From Planctomycetaceae bacterium (lineage in GTDB: Bacteria > Planctomycetota > Phycisphaerae > Sedimentisphaerales > UBA12454), in the NCBI GenBank assembly GCA_021371795.1, contig JAJFVK010000008.1, positions 1 through 64,000 of the forward strand: 64,000 nucleotides of DNA. Reading direction: 5' to 3'. Shown piece by piece: positions 9,703 through 39,255 of this stretch. Both the position numbers and the translations under genes were made by a program. The first letter of the stretch is position 1. Every line of letters starts with the position of its first letter. The notes under the pieces are model-generated. The model saw only the letters and a program-made list of their open reading frames with translations. It was not told the DNA's origin and searched no databases.

Positions 9703-11034
9703 ATGAAATTTGACTGGATAAAAGAGGCTAAATTCGCATCTTGGTGGATGACATGGGAAGACCTTGAATGGCCTGACTATGCGATTGAAAAAAAATGGGA
9801 AAAGCGCGCAAAGATATTTGCCGAAAATGGCGTTAATGCCGTTGTTATATTCGGATTCCATTTCAGGTGGGATTACCTGCCCATATTGGACCGTGTTATT
9901 GAAATACTTGCGAGAATTACAGAAATTTGCCATAACGCAGGCCTTAGAGTAGTTGACCATCACTCCGCGACATTCGTACACCGAGTACGTAACGTAAATG
10001 ACCGTTGGGAGATTAGAAAGAGAAACAGGCATCATGTTCCATTCTACCCGGATAATTGGCAGGATCTAAACTTTAACGGCTCAAAGCTTTCTGATTGGCA
10101 GCAGATATCAGCAAGAGATAATCAACCTGTATATTATGAAGGTTATAATAACGCATGTTTCTGCCCTAACAACCCTGATTACCAAAAGGCATATTTGGAG
10201 TTTATCGCAAGGCATCTTGAAAAGATTAAATATGACGCTTTAATGTCAGATGATTTGCAGTTTATGCCGGATATTTATACGTGCAGTTGTGCGCATTGCA
10301 GGGAAAAGTTTTATAGTGCTACAAAAATGGAATTGCCGGATCAATCAGAAAAAGATTTTTGGGAAAATCATAAAAACACATACTTTCAACAATGGATTCA
10401 ACTTCGCTACCAATGGACGGCGGAACATTACAAAAGGCTTCGTGCCTTCTTGCCGGAAAATATTGCGTTGTGGGGATGCGCTTCAAATTGTATAGGGGCA
10501 AATTTATCAAGTATGGGGTTTTCACCACCACACTATGCGTTTTACTGGGATGCTATTTTTCATGAAATAAATCACAGCTATCATCCCGTTAAGGATAAAG
10601 ATATGATCAGGGCCGGCATTTCGGCGTTTGCATCAATTGCCAGGCAGCATAATAAACCATTGATTGCAGTGTTCTATGTTAAAAGGCTGGAGGATATTAA
10701 ACTATGGACAGGTCTTATAGAACAAAACAATGCGAGGCCTTGGCTGTCCAGGCAAGTCCGAACAGAAGATGCTATCCCGGAAGAAGAGCTTCTTCTTAAT
10801 GGGCTTTATTTGAATAACGGCGGTTCTCCTTGTAAGATAGCCCCTCTTGTATCGCTTAGATTTTCACAGAAATATCGCGACAGTTTACCTATGCCTTTAG
10901 CGGAGCGATATGTCGATGGTTATATGAAAAAATGCAACTCTCTTATTAAGAAGAACTATACTGTAGATGTGATTTTTGATGGATACAAGAAACGTACAAA
11001 GACGGAAGAAGAGCTGCGCTCTATAAATTCTTAG
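9703..11034 (+). CDS. Putative glycoside-hydrolase-like TIM-barrel protein (GHL6-like)
   Basis: 443 residues, no signal peptide, so cytoplasmic. The sequence fits an (alpha/beta)8 barrel: NGVNAVVIFGFHFRW near the N-terminus, the VVDHHSA strand, and a central segment with NPDYQKAYLEF, SDDLQF and a C-x-C-x-x-C triad (CSCAHC). This resembles the 'hypothetical glycosyl hydrolase 6' and GH42 A-domain relatives; the acidic pair in SDDLQF is a candidate active-site element. It lies between surface glycan-binding genes and a GntR/LacI-type regulator. The assignment is by recalled pattern and would need a profile search. The ribosome-binding site is weak. Confidence 0.55.
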   Translation: MKFDWIKEAKFASWWMTWEDLEWPDYAIEKKWEKRAKIFAENGVNAVVIFGFHFRWDYLPILDRVIEILARITEICHNAGLRVVDHHSATFVHRVRNVNDRWEIRKRNRHHVPFYPDNWQDLNFNGSKLSDWQQISARDNQPVYYEGYNNACFCPNNPDYQKAYLEFIARHLEKIKYDALMSDDLQFMPDIYTCSCAHCREKFYSATKMELPDQSEKDFWENHKNTYFQQWIQLRYQWTAEHYKRLRAFLPENIALWGCASNCIGANLSSMGFSPPHYAFYWDAIFHEINHSYHPVKDKDMIRAGISAFASIARQHNKPLIAVFYVKRLEDIKLWTGLIEQNNARPWLSRQVRTEDAIPEEELLLNGLYLNNGGSPCKIAPLVSLRFSQKYRDSLPMPLAERYVDGYMKKCNSLIKKNYTVDVIFDGYKKRTKTEEELRSINS

Positions 11035-34676: not shown

Positions 34677-34750
34677 GGGCGTTTAGCTCAGTTGGTTAGA
34701 GCGCACGGATCACACCCGTGAGGTCACAGGTTCGAGTCCTGTACCGCCCA
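34677..34750 (+). tRNA. tRNA-Val (CAC anticodon)
   Basis: 74 nt fold into a cloverleaf: D stem GCTC/GAGC, anticodon stem CACGG/CCGTG with loop ATCACAC (U33, anticodon CAC), T stem ACAGG/CCTGT with TTCGAGT. The acceptor GGGCGTT/ACCGCCC has one mismatch (6-67). CCA is not encoded. The accessory island begins about 100 bp downstream of its 3' end; no repeat of the tRNA 3' end was found at the island's far side. Confidence 0.92.
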
Positions 34751-34856
34751 GTTTGGTGCGTTTCAAAACTGTTTTTATTCTCGCCTCAACCTTTCCAGCA
34801 TCCTTCTTTAGTTCGCATTCCCAGATAACATTCCCCGCAGACGCCGAATCTTAATT

Positions 34857-35093
34857 TTATTTATTAATGATAAAGTATTTTCTACCTTTTCTTTCAATTA
34901 TATTTTCGTTTAGCAATAAACCAATTATAGACCAGGATAAGTAATCTTTGTTAGCTCCTAAAAAATCAGAACGAATATCTAAAATATTGGCTATATCTAC
35001 GTTACGTAACCCTTCAGGGTGTATCTTTAATGTTTCAATGATCGCTTGCTTTAGTAAGTTTACTCCTTCTTGAGCTTTGTCATTTGGCGTCAT
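34857..35093 (-). CDS. Small winged-helix-like protein of the restriction island
   Basis: 78 residues from ATG 35093, chosen because GAGG lies 10 nt upstream; ATG 35102 has only 1 nt spacing. ETLKIHPEGLRNVDIANILDIRSDF followed by ENIIERKGRKYFIIN resembles a winged helix-turn-helix with a C-terminal beta wing. It is the last gene of the four-gene island, after the methyltransferase. It could be a controller of the island or a specificity or accessory factor. No family name is offered. Confidence 0.55.
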   Translation of the reverse strand: MTPNDKAQEGVNLLKQAIIETLKIHPEGLRNVDIANILDIRSDFLGANKDYLSWSIIGLLLNENIIERKGRKYFIINK

Positions 35094-35115
35094 AAAAAAC
35101 ATGCCTCAATACAAA

Positions 35116-36375
35116 TTATATTTTTAAAAGGTTTTTAAGAACAAGATTTGCAACTTTTACATTAACAGCATTTCCAAGTGCAGTCATTGCTGCAGAGCCC
35201 GCAGGAAAATATTTCAATTTATCCATAGACTGTAATCGAGCACATTCTTTTACAGTCATATAACGTCGTTCCCATCCAATAATTGGAACCTGAGTGGTAG
35301 TCATAGCGACTAATGAAGGTGAGGTTGTCGGTCGTTTAACCCTTACACCAGATGCTCTGAATTGAATTACGTAATCCCAAATATTGCGTTCCCCACCTTT
35401 GCAATTCCACTCTAGCTTTTGCAAACTTGGAGGAAATTTCATAATCTTCTCAAGCCAGCAATCAATATTTTTCTTATGATTTTTGTAAAGTTCTCTATTA
35501 TGTTTTATAAATATTTGTTTCCAGCCAGGGAATGAATTCTCTTCATATCTTGCATAGCTAGGTACATGTGTGATCAAATCTTCTCTGGAATGATAATTAA
35601 GTGATTTACCAAAACTCCCTTTTTTATTACGAAGCTTTGCCAACTCAATCTCAAATAAAGAATCATATTCATATGGATAGGTAGCTTTAAATTCCATGCT
35701 CCATATAGGGGATGGCAACTCTTCAGTTTTAGGGAATTTTGTAATAAAATCTTGCCAAGTTTCTAAACAAGTTGTTACCTGCGTACTTAACCCGATCGCA
35801 TCCTTGGGATTTTTGTCAAGTATGTTATGAATAGATATATCTTCGTCTGTTGTCTGCGGTTCGGGCCATTCAAATTTCTCCAGTCCTCCTAATTGACCTA
35901 CCATATACATTCTTTCTCGAATTTGTGGAACGCCGAATCTATGGGGTGAGAGTTGAGCATGTTTCACTTCATAACCAAGTTTTTCTAATGCAAGTTTTAC
36001 TTTTGTATAAGTATTGCCTTTATCGTGTCTAACAAAATGCGCAACGTTTTCTAGAAGAATGTATTTAGGCTGACAATGTTTTAATATTTCTACAATATTA
36101 AAAAAAACTGTTCCCCTTACGGCATCTTTCCATCCCATCTGATCTCCTGCCTTTGAAAATGGTTGACAAGGAAAGCCGGCACATAATAAATCGTGACGAG
36201 GAATTTCATAAGGATTAATTTTTTTTACATCGCCTGCTGGCGTGATTCCAAAGTTTGCTTCGTAAGTTTTACGAAGTTTTTCATCTATCTCACATGCAAA
36301 TACACATTTAGCCCCTAACTTTTTAGCTGCTAAATGAAATCCGCCTAATCCTGCAAATAAATCAATAAATTTCAT
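35116..36375 (-). CDS. DNA cytosine-5 methyltransferase
   Basis: 419 residues. Motifs in order: I (FIDLFAGLGGF, about 3-13), IV with catalytic Cys (GFPCQPFSKAGD, about 68-79), VI (LLENVAHFVRH, about 107), VIII (QIRERMYMVG, about 150), IX-X (LQSMDKLKYFP, GNAVNVKVA). The target-recognition region (about 190-330) is unlike anything I recognise. Type II methyltransferase length. It follows the PD-(D/E)XK-like gene by 3 nt. AT-rich codon use differs from the flanking core genes, suggesting transfer. Confidence 0.93.
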   Translation of the reverse strand: MKFIDLFAGLGGFHLAAKKLGAKCVFACEIDEKLRKTYEANFGITPAGDVKKINPYEIPRHDLLCAGFPCQPFSKAGDQMGWKDAVRGTVFFNIVEILKHCQPKYILLENVAHFVRHDKGNTYTKVKLALEKLGYEVKHAQLSPHRFGVPQIRERMYMVGQLGGLEKFEWPEPQTTDEDISIHNILDKNPKDAIGLSTQVTTCLETWQDFITKFPKTEELPSPIWSMEFKATYPYEYDSLFEIELAKLRNKKGSFGKSLNYHSREDLITHVPSYARYEENSFPGWKQIFIKHNRELYKNHKKNIDCWLEKIMKFPPSLQKLEWNCKGGERNIWDYVIQFRASGVRVKRPTTSPSLVAMTTTQVPIIGWERRYMTVKECARLQSMDKLKYFPAGSAAMTALGNAVNVKVANLVLKNLLKI

Positions 36376-36378
36376 ATA

Positions 36379-37203
36379 CTAAATTTTCTTCTTACACCAA
36401 TTTAAAATTTCTTTTCGTAAAGTAGGATCAGATAAGTTTTTATTATATACAGCCTTAAAGATTCTTACTCTATCAAAGACTAAACTATAATCATCTACTA
36501 AATCACTTAAAGTTTCATTCGGAGGAATTGAAGGTATCATAATTCCTTGTAGCGGATCTACGGACCAATGAATAAAATTACGCCAAGCTTTGATTGAAAT
36601 AGGCTTTTTGTCTGGGAAATTAATACCAGCACCACATTGTAACAGAAGAATTATTTGATTAGGTCTTGAATCTTCATGCGATTTCCATGCAATAATATCC
36701 ACTCCTTTGTCTTTATCCTTTGGTTTTGGAGTTTTATGACCTATACTTTCTGATGTTTTTAATGATATAGATTTTATCTGTTCTTTTAAACTTCTTGCGT
36801 TGGGAAAACCTATGACTTCTGATTCGCCTCCTAAATATACTTTAGCAGCTTCATTTGATAATCTCTCAAATAATTTAGTACCATCATTAATTCCCTTCTT
36901 TTTCTTAACGCCTTCAAGAGAAAAAATTAAACACATTAAGAGTTCAGGAATATTCTCTAATTTTTTTATTGGTTCTATGATTTTACCATTTACAACAAAT
37001 GGAGATGCTTTTCCATATAATCGGTTCCGAAGGGTTAACTCACTAAAAATGCTATCTATGGTTTCTTCTTTCAAATCTTGAACGTATGCTTGTAATAAAT
37101 CTGTAATAGTAGACTTAGAAAGCGATTTATTTTTGGAAATAATATAATATTCAATCCAATCAGCCATGATGTAAATGGACGTTGTGTCTTGCAAATCAAT
37201 CAT
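36379..37203 (-). CDS. Probable PD-(D/E)XK nuclease-like restriction protein
   Basis: 274 residues. The central segment KDKDKGVDIIAWK, then about 10 residues, then IILLLQCGAGIN is a PD-(D/E)XK-like pattern: Asp in G-V-D, then a beta strand ending Q-C-G-A-G with a nearby Lys, as in divergent type II restriction or repair nucleases where Glu is replaced by Gln. The N-terminal half (about 1-110) is helical. Start (37203) overlaps the end of the ParB-like gene by 4 nt (translation coupling). Assignment is from pattern and context; a fold prediction would be decisive. Confidence 0.5.
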   Translation of the reverse strand: MIDLQDTTSIYIMADWIEYYIISKNKSLSKSTITDLLQAYVQDLKEETIDSIFSELTLRNRLYGKASPFVVNGKIIEPIKKLENIPELLMCLIFSLEGVKKKKGINDGTKLFERLSNEAAKVYLGGESEVIGFPNARSLKEQIKSISLKTSESIGHKTPKPKDKDKGVDIIAWKSHEDSRPNQIILLLQCGAGINFPDKKPISIKAWRNFIHWSVDPLQGIMIPSIPPNETLSDLVDDYSLVFDRVRIFKAVYNKNLSDPTLRKEILNWCKKKI

Positions 37204-38393
37204 TTTAATATCGCTTTTTTTAATTCACCGATAGCTTCATCTAATTCTCTCCATAAGGGGACAATTTCTTTATCTCCCTTATACTTATAAGCAGTTTGTA
37301 AAGCGTTTTTTATTGCCCTAGTAGCAACTTTTATTTTCTTTTTAAGAAATTCTTTGTCGCCCCCACTTCTTTCATAAGCTTCTTCTAAGCTGTTATAATC
37401 TAGTAAATATTTAGTTGCCTCTTTATCTGCCAATATAGGTGCAAGGTGACTCGTAATTTTTCTCGAATCTGTAAGTATGGGGGTTTTATCTTTACCATTA
37501 CCAAAAATCCATGTTAAAAGAATTTCTAAATTCTGTAATTTATTTTTAGGAATCAATGGTTTTTGAAGATTTGCTTCTTTATATGAAGGCACTCCTATAT
37601 ATTCTCTAATAGATGGTGAATTAATTGCAACCGTAATTAGCGAAAATCGATTTATAATTTCTTTAGCATCGATCGAATCTAATTCATTTTTAGCTTGGTC
37701 GAAAATTTTATAATACATATATTGTTTTTTTATGGTATCAGACCTATCCCCAATTTTTTTTTGAACATTTTGAATACTCTGTTCAATATTTTTATTCTTT
37801 TTGCTTTCCTCTTCAATTCTCGCAGCTATATATTTTGCCTTTGCATATGCCTCCCATTTTAACACGCCTGTAATATGCCTTACGCCTAAATAAGGGGATA
37901 CATCTTTTAAATTCTTATAGATTATCGAAGGTATTATTTTTAGGTCTGATTCGATAGTTGAATTTTTGGGACTTGGAAAATCTGCAGTTCTAATTTGGAC
38001 TTTGTCTCTCAGCACTTGATCCGTCAGTAGTTTGGCCGTGGCAATTCTTCGATTGCCTTCAATTACAATGAATCTAATATTTTGATTATTTTTAATTAAT
38101 TTTTCAAATTCATCCTGTAGTTTGTCAATATCAAGATCCCAATTAAATGAACTTGGAATATTTTTGGGGACGGCAACAATGGGTTCCTCCTCAAAGTACC
38201 CATTTTCAGCCATAGAAAATGCAATTTCTTCCAAATCAAATTCATTATAAAGAACTTTTAAAATATCTAATTGGGTACCACTCTGATGTTCTTCTGCAAG
38301 ACGTGGATTTTGGCTGTCTAGTTCAATTCTATCTAAAGGAATGTTTATTTGCGGCTTTTTTCTGCCAATTTCATAATCTGTTTTTTTAGGCAT
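37200..38393 (-). CDS. ParB/Srx N-terminal domain protein of the restriction island
   Basis: 397 residues. N-terminal ParB/sulfiredoxin-like domain: IELDSQNPRLAEE (about 17-29), LEEIAFSMAENGYFEEEPIVAVP (about 55-78) and the nucleotide-binding FIVIEGNRRIATAKLL (about 108-123). The remainder is Lys-rich and helical. GGGAGG is 7 nt before ATG. It is the first gene of the four-gene island and is not a partition protein by context (no parA). ParB-like domains bind CTP or ATP and occur in several defence systems. Confidence 0.78.
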   Translation of the reverse strand: MPKKTDYEIGRKKPQINIPLDRIELDSQNPRLAEEHQSGTQLDILKVLYNEFDLEEIAFSMAENGYFEEEPIVAVPKNIPSSFNWDLDIDKLQDEFEKLIKNNQNIRFIVIEGNRRIATAKLLTDQVLRDKVQIRTADFPSPKNSTIESDLKIIPSIIYKNLKDVSPYLGVRHITGVLKWEAYAKAKYIAARIEEESKKNKNIEQSIQNVQKKIGDRSDTIKKQYMYYKIFDQAKNELDSIDAKEIINRFSLITVAINSPSIREYIGVPSYKEANLQKPLIPKNKLQNLEILLTWIFGNGKDKTPILTDSRKITSHLAPILADKEATKYLLDYNSLEEAYERSGGDKEFLKKKIKVATRAIKNALQTAYKYKGDKEIVPLWRELDEAIGELKKAILK

Positions 38394-38699
38394 TGGTAGC
38401 CTCCCAAGTTAACAGTACTACTCTTTTATCACACAGAAAAGTGAATTACTATATTTGTAACTATATATTTTCAGCTTATTCTAACCTGCGGCTACAGAAA
38501 ATGGAAAGAAATTTTCTTTTAAATGAGTAAGCCGATTCATTATGTTTCACAATTTGGATAGGAAATGAATCTCAATAGACTATAAAGAAAACAATTTGCT
38601 TATAGGCAATTTAGTGTTGGAATTCAGAGTAAGTCGCTCCTTTAAAAAGATTTTTTGTGTGCTGTACTTTTGCCGTGTTAATCCGTGTCTGAAAAAAAC

Positions 38700-38778: not shown

Positions 38779-38801
38779 CGCTTCACACTTCACGAGATGC
38801 G
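38779..38801. repeat. CGCTTCAC-type dispersed repeat, partial copy
   Basis: CGCTTCACACTTCACGAG, resembling the right arm of the nested inverted repeat at 53061-53126 (CGCTTCACGCTTCACG...). Confidence 0.6.
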
Positions 38802-38927
38802 TTTACGATTTTTGGCTTTTTTTTACATTTTTCTGTCGTTTTCAGTGCATTTCACTGTCATTTACTGTCTTTTAGTTGCGTTTAGTTGTTGAAAATTGCT
38901 AAAAACGCAGGCTTTTGGGCCATTTTA

Positions 38928-39075
38928 GCGCGTGAAAAAGCGCAATTCGAGTGTTTTTGCGTGTAAATATGCGCAATTTGATGTTTTTTTCATGTAATAT
39001 CGCGCAAGTTGACTGTAAATTTATGCAGGTTTGTTATAAAAGAGCGCAGGTTTGACATATTTGCGCACGCGAATA
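38928..39075. repeat. Degenerate tandem array of about 30-bp units
   Basis: About five units share the pattern GCGTGTAA-A-TGCGCAATTTGA followed by T-runs: around 38928-38958, 38959-38990, 38991-39014, 39015-39035 and 39036-39060, then GCGCACGCG. Units vary in length and identity, so it is an old or degenerate array. Confidence 0.55.
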
Positions 39076-39255
39076 CTGGCGCGGATTTTTGAGAACTTGC
39101 ATTCCCAAGCTCTTCACTCTTAACTTTTCACTATTAACTCTTAACTTTTAGTTTACTTTCATCGCTGTTTATGGTAACTACTACAGGTTTATAATGCGGA
39201 AATACTCTATACAAGAGACGCTTTTGGTTAAATCTCTGTGAACTCTGTGGTCTTG

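Follow-up and report, generated by a model that had tools for sequence, protein, structure and literature searches.

An island within a 64,000-nucleotide (nt) stretch of a Planctomycetaceae bacterium genome (contig JAJFVK010000008.1, positions 1 to 64,000), of which it is a small part, carries a minus-strand operon in the order ParB-like gene, gene for a predicted nuclease of 274 residues, C5-cytosine methylase gene and an open reading frame (ORF) of 81 residues; the whole stretch is referred to here as the window. The first three genes probably constitute a restriction-modification (RM) system, in which the ParB-like protein would serve as a specificity or loading subunit, a clamp gated by nucleoside triphosphate (NTP), for a winged-helix PD-(D/E)XK nuclease directed against unmodified DNA. 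The computed support for this reading consists of the recurrence of the trio, the co-evolution of the ParB-nuclease pair, the predicted folds, an active site with an interchangeable lysine and the agreement of ParB lineages with the chemistry of methylation. Beyond these observations, methylation would be protective, the ParB-like protein would provide specificity or loading under the control of a nucleotide, and the target would be phage or plasmid DNA. If this is correct, a ParB-like clamp, a type of protein familiar above all for its part in segregating chromosomes and plasmids, would be a standard part of a widespread restriction system.

The ParB-like protein and its predicted nuclease partner

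Genomic loci were found with the ParB-like alignment alone, by means of one peptide pattern applied to 84,980 one-per-species genomes, which yielded 484 ParB-like relatives. The best 80 of these 484, plus other loci, were retrieved, and the presence of the pair was checked in the retrieved loci. The nuclease gene directly follows the ParB-like gene in nearly all of them, and a clear adjacent nuclease is present in 49 of the 50 loci with full flanks (the full-context set); in L086, which at first seems to lack one, a divergent nuclease lies immediately downstream. Two ParB patterns gave 104 matches in viral contigs, where a scan with the nuclease as single query gave no match, and the adjacent pair was found in 79 of 80 IMG/VR loci. 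The trio as a whole recurs across many bacterial phyla. Distance matrices of the ParB-like protein and the nuclease are correlated at r=0.89, a value reached by none of 2000 permutations, compared with r=0.40 for the ParB-like protein and the C5 methylase, as expected of a complex with an exchangeable methylase, although a correlation of this kind does not prove contact. By these sequence comparisons, the ParB-like and nuclease genes are a near-obligate, co-evolving pair, and such a partner argues against a nuclease that acts without further subunits.

The 274-residue protein is predicted to be a nuclease with a winged helix and a PD-(D/E)XK domain. Its AlphaFold2 model, built from 74 aligned sequences (predicted local distance difference test, pLDDT, 95.0; predicted template modelling score 0.92), consists of an N-terminal winged helix (about residues 7-80) followed by the PD-(D/E)XK domain (about residues 82-256). 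The winged helix aligned with 2vqc at a VIA-align Z of 8.4 (66 residues, 1.9 Å), while the closest matches of the second domain were FokI (Z 7.5, 134 residues), MspJI and Nt.BspD6I (both 7.2), followed at lower scores by SdaI and BsaWI (both 6.6) and AspBHI (6.1). Foldseek placed VC1899, MspJI, Can2, Card1 and AspBHI at the top of its ranking, with modest E-values. The hallmarks of the PD-(D/E)XK superfamily, an alpha-beta core with acidic residues and a lysine, are present in this fold, which is predicted and not solved. An initial annotation of the island had set a nuclease fold in this protein as the test of its proposal, and the predicted PD-(D/E)XK core agrees with it; the D...QCGAG pattern that it had pointed out is present and conserved among relatives, and the expected homologues accompanied by ParB-like and methylase genes were found in genomic and viral loci alike.

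Conservation of the active site (Table 1) extends to R245, which is invariant in the 74 aligned relatives. In all 74, a lysine occupies one of two sites, either position 191 (9 proteins), where it forms the canonical QCK, or position 199 (65 proteins); no genomic relative has a lysine at both positions and none has it at neither. A lysine that is shifted yet never lost in the genomic set is the pattern expected of an active nuclease. The 79 viral nucleases comprise 73 with K199 only, three with K191 only, one with both, one aligned with neither and one truncated protein. At the level of sequence, this motif conservation is support that is independent of the moderate fold scores. Direct scans of the 274-residue protein gave no match in Pfam, NCBIfam or PADLOC, its 74 relatives gave a single weak match to Mrr_cat and nothing else in Pfam and PADLOC, with no PADLOC model fitting, and the nuclease profiles matched no PDB sequence. 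None of the libraries of protein families and defence systems that were searched (Pfam, NCBIfam and PADLOC) names this nuclease family.

The AlphaFold2 model of the ParB-like protein (pLDDT 94.5) has an N-terminal ParB/Srx NTP-binding fold, a KorB/Noc-like DNA-binding middle domain and a helical C-terminus. VIA-align matched it to the ParB-CTPgS structure 7bnr (Z 9.2, 93 residues), to KorB 8qa9 (Z 9.2, 205 residues) and to Noc (Z 8.4, about 200 residues); because the KorB and Noc matches extend over some 200 residues, they cover both the nucleotide-binding and the DNA-binding domain. The protein thus models as a ParB NTP-binding domain joined to a KorB/Noc-like DNA-binding domain. Its EGNRR motif stands at a position which we take to be the GERR-type Box II of ParB, so that model and motif together indicate a ParB/Srx fold with the Box II arginines. 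The family lies mostly outside the Pfam ParB_N model, which matches three of 77 ParB-like relatives at E 0.01. In a search of PDB sequences, a six-row ParB profile found a solved ParB, but the one of 77 rows found nothing besides designed helical proteins.

Some of the retrieved loci show variant arrangements of the pair. A human-gut phage-like contig (MT835579; L005:4716-9555) has two opposed ParB-nuclease pairs with a Z1 helicase and a C5 methylase upstream, and in Cellulomonas endophytica (L077:7938-12829) two pairs stand in tandem behind a Z1 helicase. A conserved protein of about 95 residues (MSTGSTEPR...FESRGGTVT) directly follows the nuclease in L032, L040, L045, L054, L062 and L087, all of them Z1 loci; most are actinobacterial, and the L062 copy forms a fusion with an AspBHI-N-like domain. 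Three related tandem ORFs of about 470-530 residues, with no confident Pfam match, come right after the pair in L012 (from position 10005 onward).

Methylase classes and the proposed mechanism

The window methylase carries the GFPCQPF and ENV motifs, and among solved structures M.HhaI is its closest relative, with a match at E 3e-50 that spans the catalytic N-terminal half. Of the 50 full-context loci, 46 have a methylase no more than 6 kb from the ParB-like gene (28 C5, 10 D12 and 8 N4/N6-type). Among neighbour families in the retrieved loci, C5 methylases (n=47), D12 adenine methylases (n=16) and PF01555-type methylases (n=15) recur, and further neighbours include Z1, Vsr, DUF4420 and GHKL genes. 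PF00145 is present in just 16 of 40 related genomes, a background rate that makes chance adjacency of a methylase very unlikely. The D12 members carry DPPY or DPPF and the PF01555 members SPPY, an N4C-type motif.

The class of methylase follows the phylogeny of the ParB-like protein. A branch of the ParB tree with support of 100/99 separates one side with 40 C5 and no amino methylases from another with 29 amino (m6A/N4C-type) and no C5 methylases, and within the amino side the unrelated D12 and N4-type enzymes swap repeatedly. This division suggests that the ParB-like protein, or the nuclease, fits the mark's chemistry and not one particular enzyme. In most viral loci the methylase stands beside the pair on the opposite strand, and there it is mostly of the C5 class, convergent and touching.

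In the most likely mechanism, the methylase would mark the host copies of a short target, with 5-methylcytosine in the case of the window system. The ParB-like protein would use its KorB/Noc-like middle domain to bind DNA and would close as an NTP-dependent clamp at unmethylated targets, or while sliding from them; in this state it would license or deliver the winged-helix PD-(D/E)XK nuclease, which would then cut incoming unmodified DNA. A further-reaching proposal, which is held tentatively and is doubtful on balance, is that these systems represent a distinct class of restriction, in which the ParB-type NTP-gated sliding clamp, and not the nuclease, reads methylation and carries the nuclease; each clamp lineage would be adapted to one kind of mark (5-methylcytosine or exocyclic amino methylation) and would accept any methylase that makes it.

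Known systems and rival explanations

The nearest described system is PD-lambda-5, a compact system combining RM with abortive infection (Vassallo et al., 2022; PMC9519451). The A protein of that system resembles the window ParB-like protein throughout the N-terminal and middle region (hhalign probability 99.8%, 241 columns), and the D12 methylase that accompanies part of the present family is none other than the B protein (PD-Lambda-5_B, 2.6e-113). However, PD-Lambda-5_A is a protein of about 450-500 residues with a C-terminal domain of its own and no match to the 274-residue nuclease, whereas the window has a separate ParB-like protein of 397 residues, a separate winged-helix PD-(D/E)XK nuclease and a C5 methylase, the D12 adenine methylase being confined to other members of the family. 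The window ParB-like protein matched the PD-Lambda-5_A models weakly (best 1.1e-12, residues 101-202), while three of four long ParB neighbours tested matched at 1e-142 to 1e-183 and the fourth more weakly. Because the A and B features of PD-lambda-5 fail in the window, membership was rejected, and the window system is a sister arrangement whose nuclease is a protein of its own; if the RM reading is true, PD-lambda-5 would find its place within a larger family. Five loci (L063, L067, L070, L078 and L086) combine the pair and a D12 methylase with a nearby homologue of PD-Lambda-5_A, and there a restriction arm and an abortive arm may share one mark. This co-occurrence was counted in favour of the RM reading, together with the defence-hotspot location in P2-like prophages described below.

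Like Type II RM systems, the present one has a methylase with complete catalytic motifs and a separate, normally adjoining gene for a PD-(D/E)XK nuclease, with a predicted fold and conserved E, D, Q-C and K residues; it differs in its near-obligatory third protein, the ParB-like one, which co-evolves with the nuclease, and in the swapping of methylase class under a constant ParB-nuclease pair. The Type IV systems GmrSD and GrwAB (DUF262 and DUF1524; PMC4619093, PMC12137116) also place a ParB/Srx-like NTP-binding module beside a nuclease or fused to it. In contrast, the system described here has a KorB/Noc-type DNA-binding domain, a PD-(D/E)XK instead of a His-Me nuclease and a methylase, and neither DUF262 nor DUF1524 was found by Pfam in the window proteins; GmrSD_N matched just two of 77 ParB-like relatives, weakly. 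Z1 is carried by 20 of 91 pair loci, several of which also have DUF4420, a GHKL ATPase or Vsr, in the manner of Z1/DUF4420/MORC-type RM operons, but Z1, GHKL ATPase and DUF4420 are absent from the window operon by Pfam scan, and the ParB-nuclease pair goes unmentioned in the text of Iyer et al. (2008; PMC2292703). KorB, Noc and ParB, proteins of the ParB-CTPase fold, resemble the ParB-like protein in the N-terminal fold predicted for it and in its predicted DNA-binding middle domain. A 2025 survey of that fold (PMC12704722) used Pfam ParB_N, a model outside which most of the present family falls, and the split ParB-like/PD-(D/E)XK pairing was not found in the passages of it that were searched. 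Finally, the A model of the PADLOC candidate PDC-M38 (PDC-M38A) matches about 280 residues of the window ParB-like protein at 8e-15, but this model is 715 residues long and no PADLOC model fits the nuclease.

The main rival to the RM reading is an abortive-infection guard, in which an indiscriminate ParB-nuclease pair would be held off by the methylated chromosome and fired when a phage or an anti-restriction protein disturbs methylation. Kinship with PD-lambda-5, itself an RM and abortive-infection system (PMC9519451) whose A protein shares the ParB-like half, speaks for such a guard, as do the several loci in which the pair and PD-Lambda-5_A stand together next to a single D12 methylase. Nevertheless, most loci hold the pair without PD-Lambda-5_A, and an intact nuclease active site and a ParB lineage that tracks methylation chemistry suit a site-directed system better; the guard is considered unlikely. 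The lead position of the ParB-like gene in the operon, and its close structural match to KorB, a ParB-family repressor, would suit a protein that, in the manner of KorB or of a controller protein, does no more than regulate the transcription of a Type II system that is ordinary in other respects. This role seems improbable, given the ParB-nuclease correlation and an adjacency kept across many phyla despite changes of methylase class, which suggests a physical complex, and given the opposite-strand methylase of most viral loci, which leaves ParB and nuclease as the conserved unit.

Several of the best fold matches of the nuclease, such as MspJI and AspBHI, are modification-dependent, and the pair might by analogy be Type IV-like, cutting modified DNA, with the methylase as a neighbour or sensitiser only. 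Cutting the mark of its own methylase would, however, be suicidal, and the frequent presence of a methylase, matched to the ParB lineage, makes this highly improbable. The ParB fold and the frequent prophage location might bring to mind a partition module of a phage or mobile element, with the methylase as a passenger and no role in defence, but this is scarcely credible: the nuclease has a PD-(D/E)XK active site, the restriction genes Vsr, Z1 and DUF4420 occur as neighbours, the P2 defence hotspot is occupied, and no ParA partner was recognised among the recurring neighbour families, although no search was aimed at ParA.

Several observations weigh against the preferred RM reading itself. The best Foldseek E-value for the nuclease model is 1.9e-3, and the VIA-align matches of the PD-(D/E)XK domain, at Z 6 to 7.5, fall under the level that the tool calls unambiguous. 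Six loci (L003, L004, L042, L049, L077 and L082) show no methylase within reach in the stretch examined, and a Z1-type system is present in most of them. The ParB-like family has GxRHxxG at what we take to be the position of the ENxxR motif of ParB, and therefore the identity of the nucleotide, its hydrolysis and even its binding by the ParB-like protein remain predictions. According to the 2025 survey, the ParB-CTPase fold includes binders of ATP, GTP and CTP, and neither sequence nor AlphaFold3 reliably predicts nucleotide specificity (PMC12704722).

Prophage relatives and the island in the window

In E. coli, P2-like prophages carry the trio between their portal and replication genes, an interval known as a defence hotspot of P2 prophages (PMC9519451, PMC9122126). 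One type of trio is present in 84 of 5,426 complete E. coli genomes, and the Wphi type (orf98 for the ParB-like protein, orf96 for the nuclease, and mth) gave 139 matches, 103 of which cover at least 80% of the trio. The latter is found in E. coli W, KO11FL and LY180, with phage Wphi itself in E. coli W, and the idea that ParB-like proteins might serve as nucleotide switches in defence thus becomes testable in a laboratory strain. No description of the trio was found in the literature text searched, a search that had subscription papers, figures and supplements outside its scope; Rousset (2022) and Vassallo (2022) draw the content of the P2 hotspot in figures, where the trio may appear unlabelled or as a restriction system. 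If the RM reading is true, it gives a function to unannotated cargo of this hotspot.

Much of what the initial annotation had described in the island was confirmed. All four minus-strand genes appear in the ORF list of the window, the methylase motifs are complete (Pfam DNA_methylase, residues 1-417), and a distance of about 107 nt separates tRNA-Val(CAC) from the point where the last ORF ends. The island is as AT-rich as claimed, with a GC content of 32.6% against a mean of 41.7% (standard deviation 2.1) for other window stretches of the same length, and none of these falls so low. The 4-nt overlap and the 3-nt gap between the genes were given correctly, but the last gap measures 13 nt instead of about 20. 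An RM-like system with a ParB-like partner is well supported, whereas its fourth gene, described as a winged-helix member, is not: the 81-residue ORF has no family match in Pfam, NCBIfam or PADLOC, and relatives are absent from 40 related genomes and from all retrieved ParB-nuclease loci. Because it is without relatives in everything searched, it was set aside as a subunit and is not counted in the system. From the tRNA to the next core gene, the ORF list has no operon genes beyond these four. Integration at the tRNA, which had been implied, found no support, the tRNA 3' end being unrepeated in the window and no integrase being seen there, and the tRNA was rejected as an attachment site. A related genome (G002) keeps the order of regulator gene and tRNA-Val without the island, which is therefore lineage-specific.

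Table 1. Coordinates of the system, its active-site and motif codons and flanking features in the window
Feature	Position	Strand	Evidence or remark
ParB-like protein, 397 residues, leads operon	37200..38393	-	ORF list, structure model, PADLOC
Nuclease (predicted), 274 residues	36379..37203	-	AlphaFold2, Foldseek, VIA-align
C5-cytosine DNA methyltransferase, 419 residues	35116..36375	-	PF00145, 2.3e-68
EGNRR motif, residues 112-116 of ParB-like protein	38046..38060	-	Invariant in 77 aligned proteins
Codon E113 of nuclease, helix A acid	36865..36867	-	74/74 genomic relatives; A or T in 26/79 viral
Codon D169 of nuclease, active-site D	36697..36699	-	74/74 genomic, 78/78 readable viral relatives
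Codons Q189-C190 of nuclease	36634..36639	-	Q 68/74, C 71/74
Codon K199 of nuclease	36607..36609	-	Lysine at 191 (QCK) instead in 9/74 genomic relatives
Probable ribosome-binding site GGGAGG, 6 nt ahead of ParB-like ATG	38400..38405	-	Sequence
Winged-helix-like ORF, 81 residues, membership doubtful	34857..35102	-	Family and relative searches negative
tRNA-Val (CAC), landmark flanking the island, outside the system	34677..34750	+	

Between the island and the next gene, window positions 38780-39160 form an AT-rich non-coding stretch with a repeat of 10-nt period (TTTCACTGTCATTTACTGTC...).

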